In this document: piece by piece, positions 10,053-32,870 of the stretch
Layout: the number at the start of each line of letters is the position of its first letter
Position numbering within the stretch: the first letter of the stretch is position 1
Assembly: GCA_039555135.1 (NCBI GenBank)
Contig: CP114179.1
Coordinates: 62,001 to 126,000 of the forward strand
Length of the DNA stretch: 64,000 nucleotides
Reading direction: 5' to 3'
Origin: Phycisphaeraceae bacterium D3-23
Lineage (GTDB): Bacteria; Planctomycetota; Phycisphaerae; Phycisphaerales; Phycisphaeraceae
Program-made: the position numbers and the translations under genes
Notes under the pieces: generated by a model
Databases searched by the model: none
Seen by the model: the letters and a program-made list of their open reading frames with translations, nothing else
Told to the model about the DNA's origin: nothing

Positions 10053-11444
10053 CTAAGCCCCTAACGATTCACGCAGCTTTTCAAGCATCAGTGACGCGAG
10101 CATGAGCACGGTAAAGAAGCCGACCAAGTCGACAACCGTCGTCACGATCGGCCCCGCCGCCATCGCAGGGTCGACGCCAATTTTTTTGAGCAGCACCGGC
10201 ACGGTCCCGCCGATGCACTTGGACACCGTGACGACGAACGGGATGGAGACCCCCAGGAGCAGCGCCAGATACAAGCTCTGCATCCAAACCAGGACGATGA
10301 CGAACAGCACGGCCCCCAGCCCAAGGCCGATCAGCCCCGCGACGACAAGTTCTTTGAATAGCACCCGCCGAAAGTCGCCCGGCCCGATGAGCCCCAGCGA
10401 CAGCTCGCGGATGCTCACCGCCACCGCCTGGTTCCCGCCGCTGCCGCAGATACCCGCGACGACCGGCAGGAAGGCCGCGAGGATCGGCAGCTCCTTCACC
10501 GTGCCCTCGAACAGCGCGATGATGGACGCCGAAGCGAGCAGAAGCAGCATGATGGGCAGCAGGAACGTCAGCCGACGCGCCGCGCGCGAGCCGATCGACA
10601 TCGAGCGCAGCTCTTCGCCGCCGATGATGCCGCCGAAGCGCAGGAACTGCTCGGCCTCACGGTCGCCGACCGCCTCCTGCACCGACGCACGCTGCACCAC
10701 ACCGACCAGCTTGCCCTGGTCCAGCACCGGGATCGCAAACAGGTCGACGCGGTCGAACAGGTCGTGCAGGTCGTCCAGGTGCGTATCGACATTAACCGTC
10801 ATCGCCTCGTCGACCTTGATCGAAACGATCGGCCTCGTCGGCGGGACGAGCAAGATCGAACGCAGCGGGACCACGCCCGTCAGCCGGCCGGCCGTGTCGA
10901 TCGCGTAGACGTAGCGCACCTCGTACTCGCCATACTGCTCGGCGTTTTCCTGCAGGTCCACCGTCACCTCGCGCACCGGCTGGTCCTCGTGGTACGCCAG
11001 GTACTCCGTGATCATCAGCCCCCCGGCCGTGTCTTCGTCGTACTCCAGACGCTTGCGGGTATCGTGCGCCTCCTCGGGCGTCATCTCCGCGAGGATCGCC
11101 TCGGCGTCGGCGTCGTCCATCTCCGCCAGGACATCGACCTGCTCGTCCGAGTCCATCTCGTCGACGATCAACGCCGCGGTGTCGGGTTCGAGCTGCTCGA
11201 TCATCTCCGCCGCGTGCTCGTCGACAAAGTGCTCGAGCAGGTCGGCCGCCAGCGGCGCGTCGTGTTCTGACAACAGCGACAGCATCTGCGTCCGCGTATC
11301 CTCGGTCAGGTGCGAGACGGTGTAGGCGGTATCTTCGGGCGGCAGCAGGTGCAGAAACGACGCGACCGCATCGCCCCCGCCCTCGGCCACAAGCGCCTCG
11401 AGCTCCACCACCGCGCCCGCCTTGTCGTCCGTCTCCTGAACCAT
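10053..11444 (-). CDS. mgtE: Magnesium transporter MgtE
   Basis: A 463-residue Mg2+ channel. Domains in order: an acidic N domain (about 15-130) made of short helical repeats, a CBS pair (about 135-260) that senses cytoplasmic Mg2+, and a five-helix membrane domain (about 285-460) with GICGSGGNQAVAVSIRELSLG, the conserved pore-lining region. I start at ATG 11444 (MVQETDDKAG). A longer frame to 11501 would reach into an inverted repeat. TACACT lies exactly 6 nt before this ATG, suggesting a leaderless message. No M-box riboswitch fits in the gap. Confidence 0.94.
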   Translation of the reverse strand: MVQETDDKAGAVVELEALVAEGGGDAVASFLHLLPPEDTAYTVSHLTEDTRTQMLSLLSEHDAPLAADLLEHFVDEHAAEMIEQLEPDTAALIVDEMDSDEQVDVLAEMDDADAEAILAEMTPEEAHDTRKRLEYDEDTAGGLMITEYLAYHEDQPVREVTVDLQENAEQYGEYEVRYVYAIDTAGRLTGVVPLRSILLVPPTRPIVSIKVDEAMTVNVDTHLDDLHDLFDRVDLFAIPVLDQGKLVGVVQRASVQEAVGDREAEQFLRFGGIIGGEELRSMSIGSRAARRLTFLLPIMLLLLASASIIALFEGTVKELPILAAFLPVVAGICGSGGNQAVAVSIRELSLGLIGPGDFRRVLFKELVVAGLIGLGLGAVLFVIVLVWMQSLYLALLLGVSIPFVVTVSKCIGGTVPVLLKKIGVDPAMAAGPIVTTVVDLVGFFTVLMLASLMLEKLRESLGA

Positions 11445-11450
11445 CGCATG

Positions 11451-29280: not shown

Positions 29281-29308
29281 AGTGTACCTATCCCCGGGCC
29301 CCTGTCAA
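29281..29308 (-). promoter_or_regulatory. Sigma-70-type promoter of the ribosomal operon
   Basis: On the minus strand TTGACA, a 16-nt spacer, then TACACT. This is the best promoter in the window. It lies 81 nt before the rpsJ start and should drive the S10-spc-alpha cluster. The rest of the 314-nt gap (29201-29514) holds C-runs and no gene. Confidence 0.8.
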
Positions 29309-29473
29309 CGCGACCCCCCTCGGCTTTTTGAGATTTTTCTGACGCCCTGGGCCAACCGATTCCTTCATCCCTGACCTGCCCCCCGAAGCCGACAGATTCC
29401 ATCGGTGGGTCACGCAGGGGCAACTCCCCCACCCCCCCGCAACCGGATACCCAAAAAACCTCCATCCCCCCAC

Positions 29474-29502
29474 TGGCCGACCCACGAATCAGCCGATATA
29501 CT
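29474..29502 (+). promoter_or_regulatory. Candidate promoter of tRNA-Ala
   Basis: TATACT at 29497-29502, 12 nt before the tRNA 5' end, with a weak -35 (TGGCCG, 17-nt spacer). The -10 is convincing; the -35 is not. Confidence 0.55.
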
Positions 29503-29514
29503 CCCCGCCCCCTT

Positions 29515-29587
29515 GGGGCGTTAGCTCAGTTGGTAGAGCGGTTGCTTTGCAAGCAACAGGTCATCGGTTCGACCCCGATACGCTCCA
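29515..29587 (+). tRNA. tRNA-Ala, anticodon UGC
   Basis: 73 nt. Acceptor GGGGCGT pairs with ACGCTCC; D arm AGCTCAGTTGGTAGAGC; anticodon stem GTTGC/GCAAC with loop TTTGCAA, so anticodon TGC; T arm with GGTTCGACCCC; discriminator A. CCA is not encoded. Its 3' end and terminator are duplicated at 31184-31271. Confidence 0.96.
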
Positions 29588-29650
29588 TCCCCCAAAGCCG
29601 CAGGGCCGGTTGCGACAGCAGCCGACCCGATGCGGCTTTTTTCATGCGCC
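29561..29650 (+). repeat. Direct repeat copy 1: tRNA-Ala 3' end plus terminator
   Basis: About 90 nt from the T arm of tRNA-Ala through its terminator to CATGCGCC. It is repeated with few differences at 31184-31271 in the same orientation. The copies enclose 1.5 kb carrying the PEP-CTERM gene. Confidence 0.85.
29594..29642 (+). terminator. Rho-independent terminator of tRNA-Ala
   Basis: Stem AAAGCCGCA / TGCGGCTTT with an inner GGTTGC/GCAGCC stem, ending in six Ts. Begins 7 nt after the tRNA. Confidence 0.85.
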
Positions 29651-29822
29651 AGCGGGATTTGATCTGGTTCTTGCGGCGTAGCGGGTACGTCGGCCTGCGA
29701 CACGCTACGGCCGTCGGCGACCGTGACGGGTATGTCTATGAGTGTGTCAAACCGCGATACCCGCCGCTTGCGTCGTCGGGTAAGCGGTTGAGGGCTTCGG
29801 CGAGGTTGGGGGCCTACAGGGG

Positions 29823-30887
29823 CTATCGCCGGCGTCGTAGCAAGGCGAAGCCGCCGAGGCCGAAGACAGCTAGCGTGCCGGGTTCAGGGACCACGTTAGG
29901 GGGTGTGCCATCGCCCCAGTTGTCGAGGACGATCTGGAGGTCGGCCTGCCCGATCAGGCCGTCGCCGCTGCCGTCGCCTTGCGCGAGGTTCCCGGCCGTG
30001 ACGGCGTCGCCCCAGTTGGCAAGGAGGATGTCAAGGTCTGCTGCTCCGACGAAGCCGTCTGCGTTGTAGTCGCCAAGTTCAGTGACATCGTCGATCCTCG
30101 CATTTACAGTCAGACCCGATAGGAAGTTGATGCTCAGGTCGCTGTCGCCGGGGTTGAAGGCCACGCTGAACGAGCCGGAAGCCGAGTCGCCTAGCGGGAG
30201 CACCGAATCCGCCGAGTGAAACTCGACGAAGTCAAAGTATGGCGTATCGGGGACCGCATCAAAGACTTCAAACATGTACTCGTTGCCGGAGGCGTCATCG
30301 ACGGCGCGGCCGTTGACGTTCAGCCCCTCGCCGAACACGGAAGTGGACCCCGGCAAAAAGGTTGTATCCAGCGAGCCGGTGAGCTCGGCCTCGTAGGAAA
30401 ACTCAAACGTGAACGCGACGCTTGTATCGCTGAAGGATGTGAAGAACAACTCGGCGTCACTGGCGACCTGGCCAAAGAACACGGCACCGGGAGTCGAGAC
30501 GGTGGCGAAGGCGTCCATCGTCAGCATGAAGCTGTCGCCGATCCCGAACGCGTCCATGTCGATGTCATCCACGAACGGGTCCAGCCCGTTGACAAGCTGC
30601 ATCTCGGACGCGCTGCCAAAGCCGACGCTGCCGGGCGGGTTGCTCGGCCCACCGCCCATGAACGTGTTCGTGTTGGGCCCAAAGTCCTCGAACTGCAAGT
30701 CTCCGACCTCCGACGAGGTCTCGAAGACGGCCGAGCGCATCTCGTTCGTGGCCGTGTCCGTGTAGATGACATCGTCCAGAGTGAAGGTCAATTGCAGCCG
30801 GGCATCGGCGGCATTGGCCCTGGCCTCGGAGACAACAAAGCAGGCCGAAACAGCCAGGCATCCGATCATTAGACGGCGATTGTTCAT
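29823..30887 (-). CDS. PEP-CTERM sorted extracellular protein with dockerin-like repeats
   Basis: 354 residues. Signal peptide at 1-24 (cleavage near ARANA). The middle (about 30-265) is a beta-rich, Asp/Ser/Thr-rich secreted domain with no recognised family. Two dockerin-type calcium loops follow: DYNADGFVGAADLDILLANW and DGSGDGLIGQADLQIVLDNW. The C-terminus is a PEP-CTERM signal: VPEPGTLAVFGLGGFALLRR ending in RR. An exosortase would process it for surface display; none is in the window. Strong AGGAGAG ribosome site. It lies between two copies of the tRNA-Ala 3' end, opposite in direction to the tRNA. Confidence 0.92.
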   Translation of the reverse strand: MNNRRLMIGCLAVSACFVVSEARANAADARLQLTFTLDDVIYTDTATNEMRSAVFETSSEVGDLQFEDFGPNTNTFMGGGPSNPPGSVGFGSASEMQLVNGLDPFVDDIDMDAFGIGDSFMLTMDAFATVSTPGAVFFGQVASDAELFFTSFSDTSVAFTFEFSYEAELTGSLDTTFLPGSTSVFGEGLNVNGRAVDDASGNEYMFEVFDAVPDTPYFDFVEFHSADSVLPLGDSASGSFSVAFNPGDSDLSINFLSGLTVNARIDDVTELGDYNADGFVGAADLDILLANWGDAVTAGNLAQGDGSGDGLIGQADLQIVLDNWGDGTPPNVVPEPGTLAVFGLGGFALLRRRR

Positions 30888-31183
30888 CTTGTAACTCTCC
30901 TAGAGGGAGTAGAGGTAGGCCCACCCAGCAACGCTGCGGGGCGGTAAAGGACACGGCTACCGTGGACCGACGGGCGGCACACGGGGATGCGCTCCTATGC
31001 CTATGCGACAACCAGCCGGGGGCGGGGCCATCGGGCTTCTTTTTTTTACAGACCTTCCTCGCCGGTCGCATGCCGCGTCCATCCCCGAGCCCGTTTTCGA
31101 GCGGTACGCCGCAGTATTGGTCCCCGGAGTAGGGCCGAGGTCGCACCAAGCAAAACCACCGAGCCGCCAGGGCCGGGGTTGTT
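30888..31183. other. Non-coding stretch upstream of the PEP-CTERM gene
   Basis: No credible gene. It should hold the promoter of the PEP-CTERM gene, but no clear -35/-10 pair is visible. A run of eight Ts lies near 31043 on the plus strand without a convincing stem. Confidence 0.5.
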
Positions 31184-31271
31184 TCATGGGTTCGACCCCG
31201 ATACGCACCACCCCCAAGCCGCAGGGCCGATTGCGACAGCAGCCGACCCGATGCGGCTTTTTTCATGCGCC
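31184..31271 (+). repeat. Direct repeat copy 2: tRNA-Ala 3' fragment plus terminator
   Basis: Repeats 29561-29650 with a few substitutions and a 2-nt shortening, including the GGTTCGACCCCGATACGC segment and the whole terminator stem with T-run. The 5' two thirds of a tRNA are missing, so it is a remnant, not a tRNA gene. It looks like an attachment-type flank or the scar of a tandem duplication. Confidence 0.85.
31216..31263 (+). terminator. Duplicated tRNA-type terminator
   Basis: AAGCCGCA / TGCGGCTT stem with six Ts on the plus strand. No plus-strand gene precedes it, so it seems vestigial. It is part of the second repeat copy. Confidence 0.7.
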
Positions 31272-31383
31272 GGTACCCCTGCCCGCCGCATGCGTCATAG
31301 CGCGGAGCACCTGCATCGACCCGCGACACCGCCAACGGCGGATGCCGGGCGGGCGATCGGCGATCTCGTGCGTTGGCTGATAT

Positions 31384-32571
31384 CTACGCCGTGACGGCCG
31401 ACCCGCGTCGCTTGCGATGAAAGAACCAGAGCAACGCTACCATTGCCCCCGCGATGAGCAAAAATGGGATCACGAATACAACCTTCGACGCTGTCAGATG
31501 GCTCAATCGGCCGGGCTTTCCACCCGCCTGGGCCACATCCAATGCCGGTGCCTTGTAATACTTCGCGGCGAACTCGGCATCGAGGTCTTTCCCCGCCGCG
31601 GCCCAAGCGCGCTGATCCGCTTCGATCTCGGCGAAAAACGCGTCGCCTTGAGCGATCTCTTTTTTTAGGTCCGCTTCGACTTGAGCAAGTGTTACGCCAC
31701 GTTGCATCTCCAGCGCCTCTTCGGCCAACACGCGATACGCGGCCGAGGCGTCGCCTTCCGTCTCATAGGACGCCTTCAAGTATGCACGGGAGGCCAGCAT
31801 TTTGGCATCGACGCCGAGCCCGACCGCAAGCATGAGGTCGCCCAGCGCTTCGAGCAGGATTGGCGAGTCGTAGTTCCCGAAACGCATCATGCCCAGGATA
31901 CCCTTGACCGCACGGGCCAATTCAACGTCGCGATCGGCCCTGTCGGTGCCCTGCATATGGAGGACGAACAACGAGAAACTCTCGGCATAACTCGGCCGCC
32001 CTTGTGCGTCTTCGTCTGACTGGTCCCAGGCCTCAAACCCAAAAACTGCCTGATCACGCAGCGGCAGCGTGCTCTCACCTTCCCCCGCACGCACCATCAG
32101 CACATACTCCACCAACAGCTTCTGATAAATCTCCCGGCCAAAGTGCGCCTCGGGGTTAATCTCGATCGCCTTCTCGATGTGCTCCAGACCCGCTTCGAGT
32201 TCGCCGGCATGGATGTGAAACGTGCCCAGGTTCGCGTGCGACTCGTACCGGCCTTCGTCGGGCCAGCGCTCCATCTTCGCGCGGATGGTTGCGATCGCCT
32301 CGTCCTGTCGGCCGAGTTTGTCGTAGGACACGGCGATGTCGTCGTAGTCGGCCGGGGTGCGCTGGGCCAAGGGCGTTTGCTCGCGGTCTTCGATCCGCCA
32401 TTCGTAATGGGCCGGCGAGTGCCGGACAAACAGCCCCGCGATCAGCTCGTGCGCCTCGGGGAAGCGTTCCCGCTCCATCGCGATCGTGTCGTAGTCCCAC
32501 TCACACGCCTGCAGCATGTCTGGTGTCGCGAGCATCAGGCCGGCCAGGATCAACGCCAGAAAAGTTCGCAT
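31384..32571 (-). CDS. TPR-containing membrane-anchored protein
   Basis: 395 residues. Signal peptide at 1-22 (MRTFLALILAGLMLATPDML), then helical repeats; SYDKLGRQDEAIATIRAKME and NLGTFHIHAGELEAGLEHIE look like TPR units at about residues 80-150. A single transmembrane helix near the C-terminus (VVFVIPFLLIAGAMVALLWF) is followed by HRKRRGSAVTA. The bulk of the protein is thus expected in the periplasm. Function unknown; TPR proteins usually scaffold complexes. Ribosome site GAGGAAC. Confidence 0.8.
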   Translation of the reverse strand: MRTFLALILAGLMLATPDMLQACEWDYDTIAMERERFPEAHELIAGLFVRHSPAHYEWRIEDREQTPLAQRTPADYDDIAVSYDKLGRQDEAIATIRAKMERWPDEGRYESHANLGTFHIHAGELEAGLEHIEKAIEINPEAHFGREIYQKLLVEYVLMVRAGEGESTLPLRDQAVFGFEAWDQSDEDAQGRPSYAESFSLFVLHMQGTDRADRDVELARAVKGILGMMRFGNYDSPILLEALGDLMLAVGLGVDAKMLASRAYLKASYETEGDASAAYRVLAEEALEMQRGVTLAQVEADLKKEIAQGDAFFAEIEADQRAWAAAGKDLDAEFAAKYYKAPALDVAQAGGKPGRLSHLTASKVVFVIPFLLIAGAMVALLWFFHRKRRGSAVTA

Positions 32572-32870
32572 GTCGGGTTCCTCGGAGGTTGTAACGCCAG
32601 ACTCTGCACACCGCCCGCGCCGGCGGTATCACACTGCCGTCGCGAGTACTGATAGGATTTTATCGCACCTGCGCTGTGAACCGAAGCGTCGTGTTGGAAA
32701 GCACTACGTTTTCGGCGGGTGTGTGTGCCCCGCAGATCGCGGGTTAGCGCGGCCTACCTGCGATTGCCCGCTAAGCCGCGAGCGGCGGGCTGTGGAGAGC
32801 GGAGCGCTCGGCGCGGATGGCGGACTCTGGTAGCTTGAGCGCGCCCCCTACCGCCTACCGGAGACGACCG
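32572..32870. other. Divergent gap with a GGTTAGC-type palindrome
   Basis: Separates the TPR gene and the sppA-like gene. Holds GCGGGTTAGCGCGGC (about 32739-32753) and a related inverted segment GCCCGCTAAGCCGCGAGCGG (from 32766). They share the GTTAGC/GCTAA word seen at other loci. No gene; promoters presumably lie here but none is clear. Confidence 0.45.

Follow-up and report, generated by a model that had tools for sequence, protein, structure and literature searches.

Integration at tRNA genes is an ordinary and well-known kind of event, and several described systems resemble the locus analysed here. The site used lies in the T-stem region in 1836 of the 3919 islands of the Islander collection, where an intact tRNA gene is followed by a 3' fragment in the same orientation (PMC4383910). 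The mycobacteriophage Ms6, a complete phage, uses the T-loop of a tRNA-Ala gene, the core being given as 26 bases only (PMC1762012). Long att repeats have been reported in Pseudomonas fluorescens Pf-5: one of 104 bp lies at tRNA-Ser, and direct repeats of 84 bp that overlap the tRNA-Cys gene flank Prophage 05, a very small remnant (2.6 kb) that retains a truncated integrase and a tail gene (PMC2647930). Judged by titles and the opening of abstracts, the literature offered nothing on point regarding terminators inside att repeats, islands in Phycisphaerae, or repair duplications.

The locus belongs to Phycisphaeraceae bacterium D3-23 and lies in a stretch of 64,000 nucleotides (the window) corresponding to bases 62001-126000 of a single 4.62-Mb contig. 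A preliminary description of this stretch had claimed that the 3' end of tRNA-Ala and its terminator are directly repeated 1.6 kb downstream, and this was confirmed (Table 1). Copy 1 of the repeat comprises about 30 nt of the 3' end of tRNA-Ala(TGC), from tRNA position 48, and 60 nt with the terminator, ending 8 nt past its T run. Copy 2 is in direct orientation, at a start-to-start spacing of 1621-1623 nt, and a global alignment of the two gives 85 identical bases out of 88 aligned, with three substitutions and two 1-nt gaps. When the whole genome was searched with the tRNA and terminator as query, copy 2 was recovered with an E value of 6.2e-32, and no third copy of tail plus terminator was found in the 4.62 Mb; two further matches cover the tRNA part only (query positions 2-74 and 2-57) and fall at other tRNA genes. 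The repeat is therefore real and not due to chance, nor does it represent a terminator family, since no third copy was found in the genome.

Table 1. Features of the tRNA-Ala locus (positions within the window; a dot marks a feature without strand)
Feature	Position	Strand	Support or remarks
tRNA-Ala (anticodon TGC), intact, read as integration target	29514-29590	+	ARAGORN; Rfam RF00005, 70.2 bits
Copy 1 of the repeat (tRNA from position 48 to its 3' end, then the terminator), interpreted as attL side	29561-29650	+	
Hairpin and T run forming the copy 1 terminator	29594-29642	+	Predicted RNA fold at -32.4 kcal/mol (z -6.1); G003, G004 and IMG/VR L100 have homologues following the same tRNA tail
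Enclosed segment, 1533 nt	29651-31183	.	No second copy in the genome, apart from the part coding for the dockerin-like/PEP-CTERM C terminus
Gene of a 354-aa surface protein with a PEP-CTERM motif and, by eye, two dockerin-like repeats	29823-30887	-	PF07589, E 3.1e-6
Copy 2 of the repeat (detached tail of tRNA-Ala followed by the terminator), decaying and interpreted as attR side	31184-31271	+	
Terminator of copy 2, weakened	31214-31263	+	RNA fold -24.5 kcal/mol
Right flank, TPR-domain gene, patchy distribution	31384-32571	-	

Like Islander-type islands, the locus presents an intact tRNA gene, a same-orientation 3' fragment downstream and a repeat starting on the T-arm side, and this start fits a known att class, given the T-stem-region sites of Islander and the T-loop site of Ms6. 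Unlike them, as far as that source describes them, it has no integrase inside or overlapping the interval, its repeat includes the terminator, and its length (1.5 kb between the copies, or about 1.6 kb measured from one start to the next) falls below the Islander range of 2-200 kb. Prophage 05 shares with it the small size and the long repeats but not the loss of every recognisable phage gene, and Ms6 shares the tRNA-Ala and the T-loop site but not the extent of the repeat. Closest by location are integrase elements of three same-genus genomes (G001, G002 and G003) and of the viral contigs L096 and L100, which occupy the same tRNA gene with a homologous terminator; in them, however, the repeat runs from the anticodon stem-loop to the tRNA end (stopping within about 5 nt of it in G003 and the viral pair) and only one terminator is present. 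It is thus the boundary of the repeat that is unusual. Because the integrase is absent and the length insufficient, the locus is described as a remnant resembling a tRNA island and not counted as an active one.

The single long ORF between the copies encodes a protein with the features of PEP-CTERM exosortase substrates (a C-terminal PEP motif, a transmembrane stretch and a basic end), scoring above the cut-off of TIGR02595 (E 5.8e-5) as well as of the Pfam profile. None of the 10 PF00589 hits of the genome falls in the window, so that the earlier claim of one surface-protein gene and no integrase between the copies stands, and PHROGs gave no match for five ORFs from 29530-31391 or for the TPR ORF. 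Other genome matches of the segment lie only within query positions 232-491 or on the tail repeat. Among 397 genomes of the class, only the one carrying the gene itself matched the N-terminal part of the protein, and no relatives of this part were found in plasmids; peptide patterns of the whole protein retrieved nothing from viral contigs. Its single-sequence structure model was uninformative (mean pLDDT 30.7), and base composition did not distinguish the enclosed segment.

Some other candidates at the locus were discarded. A decayed second PEP-CTERM gene before copy 2 (minus strand from 31183), convincing by eye, was rejected at -2.5 bits, with a rank of about 9250 among 14504 six-frame segments scored with an HMM of 33 PEP C-termini from the same genome, no Pfam match up to E 10 and no DNA match among the stretches compared. 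The idea of copy 2 as a small RNA gene is unsupported: the sole promoter-like site in 29300-32700, at 30082-30110, is far from it, in a scan limited to the sigma-70 consensus for which 0.5 sites are expected by chance. Integron gene cassettes are defined by an attC with a GTTRRRY core and by an integron integrase; no such core was seen by eye in copy 1, the copy inspected, and the window has no PF00589 hit.

Comparison of the two copies indicates which of them is derived. At all three substitutions copy 1 has the state of G003, G004 and L100 and copy 2 the derived one, and the hairpin of copy 2 is predicted to be weaker than that of copy 1. Copy 1 appears to be the working tail, and copy 2 is decaying, as expected of a displaced att fragment. 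With end gaps set aside, the terminators of the two copies are identical at 47 of 49 positions, while they share 36-41 of 47-49 positions with those of G003 and G004, and 43 of 46-47 with that of L100. As both terminators resemble each other more than those of the congeners, the duplication is younger than the split from G003 and G004, and the attP tail of an integrating element would need to have originated in this same lineage.

The tRNA query was matched in 57 of the 61 genomes searched. An integrase gene or its debris lies directly behind tRNA-Ala in three of the four congeners, as a tyrosine integrase in G003 (PHROG integrase, E 8.7e-32) and as broken pieces in G001 and G002; in G004 the tRNA and its terminator carry no insert and are followed by a gene that is sulfatase-like by eye. 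A scan of 19 tRNA-Ala loci, those returned by the tRNA search, with 17 integrase queries gave matches at five, each downstream of the tRNA and within 1.5 kb; the queries include sequences from two of the five positive genomes, which other queries match too. On another contig of G003, a detached tRNA tail and a homologous terminator lie beside another gene (L024:4301-4399), presumably the other end of the island at the tRNA-Ala of this genome. Ten IMG/VR contigs match the tRNA-tail pattern: L096 has the full tRNA-Ala, followed after about 0.6 kb by an integrase, a detached tail and homologous terminator (11340-11450) form the end of L100, and the other eight yielded neither an integrase match nor such a terminator. 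Both L096 and L100 derive from metagenome 3300029585 and look like two ends of proviruses at the tRNA-Ala of this bacterial group. These integrases, debris and detached tails show tRNA-Ala(TGC) to be a hotspot of recurrent integration within the genus.

The proposal in the preliminary description of an integration at the tRNA 3' end is thereby made likely, although none of the genomes searched showed the empty site, in which tRNA-Ala and terminator would run directly into the sequence after 31271. G004, lacking the insert, has a different downstream gene, and the right flank is in place in no relative. The TPR gene of this flank is present in none of the four congeners; strong relatives (E below 1e-80) occur in 3 of 50 other family genomes, with weak TPR-level matches in six more. 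Between rpsJ and the SppA-like peptidase, G002 has other ORFs, and tRNA-Ala is absent there. The tRNA-Ala(TGC) lies behind metH in G001, G003 and G004, and elsewhere in G002 and in the genome of the window. With a patchy TPR gene, a different interval in G002 and a shifting tRNA position, the region is variable beyond the repeat, and no relative gives a clean before-and-after comparison. The tail-repeat arrangement itself was found in none of the four congeners, so the conservation in relatives that would have spoken against an integration was not observed; three of these assemblies are fragmentary (250-420 contigs, completeness 70 to 100%), and absences in them are for this reason weaker evidence.

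Rfam detects 71 tRNAs in this genome, 24 of which, several low-scoring, are packed into a dense 6.3-kb array at 2.780-2.787 Mb (2780282-2786616), outside the window. For the tRNAs outside this array, each tRNA plus 80 nt was compared with up to 15 kb downstream, in 53 tests on 47 distinct genes (duplicates arise from overlapping stretches, and each test includes a trivial self-overlap). Four loci gave a repeat with E < 1e-4 that was not another tRNA gene: tRNA-Thr (46 nt, 100%, 9.2 kb away, a place that the neighbouring tRNA-Thr gene matches as well), tRNA-Gly (44 nt, 100%, 3.7 kb), tRNA-Ser (30 nt, 90%, 11.1 kb) and the tRNA-Ala of the window (90 nt, 93%, 1.6 kb), the only one whose repeat includes a terminator. 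Six more matches at other tRNAs (E 0.002-0.04) are at chance level. Tyrosine integrases lie between the paired repeats at tRNA-Thr and at tRNA-Gly; each of these repeats begins at the anticodon loop and ends within about 5 nt of the tRNA end. The tRNA-Thr island (288400-304000 region), its integrase recognised by PHROG, contains ORFs that by eye are large primase/ATPase-like and tape-measure-like. The tRNA-Gly(CCC) island (L076:5889-9656, at 3.53 Mb) has a PEP-CTERM gene on the opposite side of its tRNA, and it is the one locus here matched by the G003 integrase.

Eight of the PF00589 hits lie 0.1-15 kb from five other tRNA genes, namely tRNA-Ser (3.6 and 14.6 kb), tRNA-Gly (0.1 kb), tRNA-Glu (0.2 and 1.5 kb), tRNA-Met (0.8 kb) and tRNA-Thr (0.7 and 9.5 kb, the latter just beyond the repeat), and none is near tRNA-Ala. 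The two strongest hits are presumably the XerC/XerD recombinases. Comparison over about 54 kb revealed no tail repeat for tRNA-Met or tRNA-Glu, and tRNA-Ser has an additional 19-nt match about 35 kb away.

Among the three options offered by the preliminary description, a remnant island is the best supported, and we consider it somewhat probable that copies 1 and 2 are the attL and attR of a tiny, immobile remnant at a T-arm-type site. Site-specific recombination within the T-arm portion of tRNA-Ala would have inserted a small element, whose new tail and terminator (copy 1) became joined to the tRNA, while the tail and terminator of the host would have been displaced and now be decaying as copy 2. 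The 1.5 kb that remain, in which a single PEP-CTERM gene is present but an integrase is not, would be either the residue of a larger island after deletion or a piece brought in by an integrase acting in trans. This reading is favoured by the orientation and side of the tRNA fragment downstream of the intact gene, the T-arm start, the use of the same tRNA in the genus and the decay of copy 2, as well as by the integrase-bearing islands with perfect tail repeats at tRNA-Gly and tRNA-Thr and by the long att repeats of strain Pf-5. Against it stand the unremarkable base composition, the missing empty site and an attP tail that would need to derive from the same lineage; a repeat running 60 nt past the tRNA, through the terminator, and a segment in which no integrase or other mobile gene is recognised call for caution. 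That an integrase made this pair, that the crossover fell in the T arm and that the remainder of the island was lost are inferred.

Next in rank, and possible though on balance doubtful, is a duplication scar formed without an integrase, in which the block of about 90 bp was copied locally and came to flank the PEP gene by a repair accident, for instance when a 1.5-kb fragment was inserted at a staggered break with filled-in ends, or by template switching. Such an origin would suit two copies that both carry the terminator and are closer to each other than to the terminators of two congeners, block ends that fit no att class at the other islands compared here, and the lack of a mobility gene. 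Nevertheless, the start inside the tRNA, the inclusion of its whole 3' end and the downstream, same-orientation placement would all be due to chance, the accident would have hit a tRNA that is an integration site in three of four congeners, and it would have produced the sole terminator-including repeat among the tRNA genes tested. The option of a minimal cassette, in which one surface-protein gene lies between att blocks made of tRNA tail and terminator and is moved in trans by the integrase of another element, fared worse in the comparison: the integrases of this genome are presumably Xer proteins or sit at other tRNA genes, nothing positive points to it, and we regard it as unlikely.

Even less likely is a tandem duplication that produced a second tRNA-Ala gene, terminator included, of which 5' truncation left copy 2 as a relic. 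Copy 2 does have tail and terminator exactly like a full gene, and the tRNA position is unstable in the genus; yet nothing before 31184 resembles a tRNA 5' half by eye, no duplicated PEP segment is seen behind copy 2, and the truncation must have been clean, because the copies differ at so few positions while the 5' half is absent. A genome-wide terminator family unrelated to the tRNA, which the preliminary description had named as a possible refutation, has nothing in its favour and can practically be discarded: it is contradicted by the presence of two copies only and by a degenerate 45-nt hairpin pattern, which occurs in two contigs among 84,980 genomes and in one among 2.9 million viral contigs, all three sites sitting behind a tRNA-Ala tail.

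In sum, the locus is probably a further trace of integration at a tRNA gene, and tRNA-Ala(TGC) emerges as a recurrent site for it in the little-studied Phycisphaeraceae. The terminator-bearing repeat is notable because the compared elements at tRNA-Ala separate the gene from its terminator. If the minimal-cassette reading were true, integration would never leave the tRNA without a terminator.
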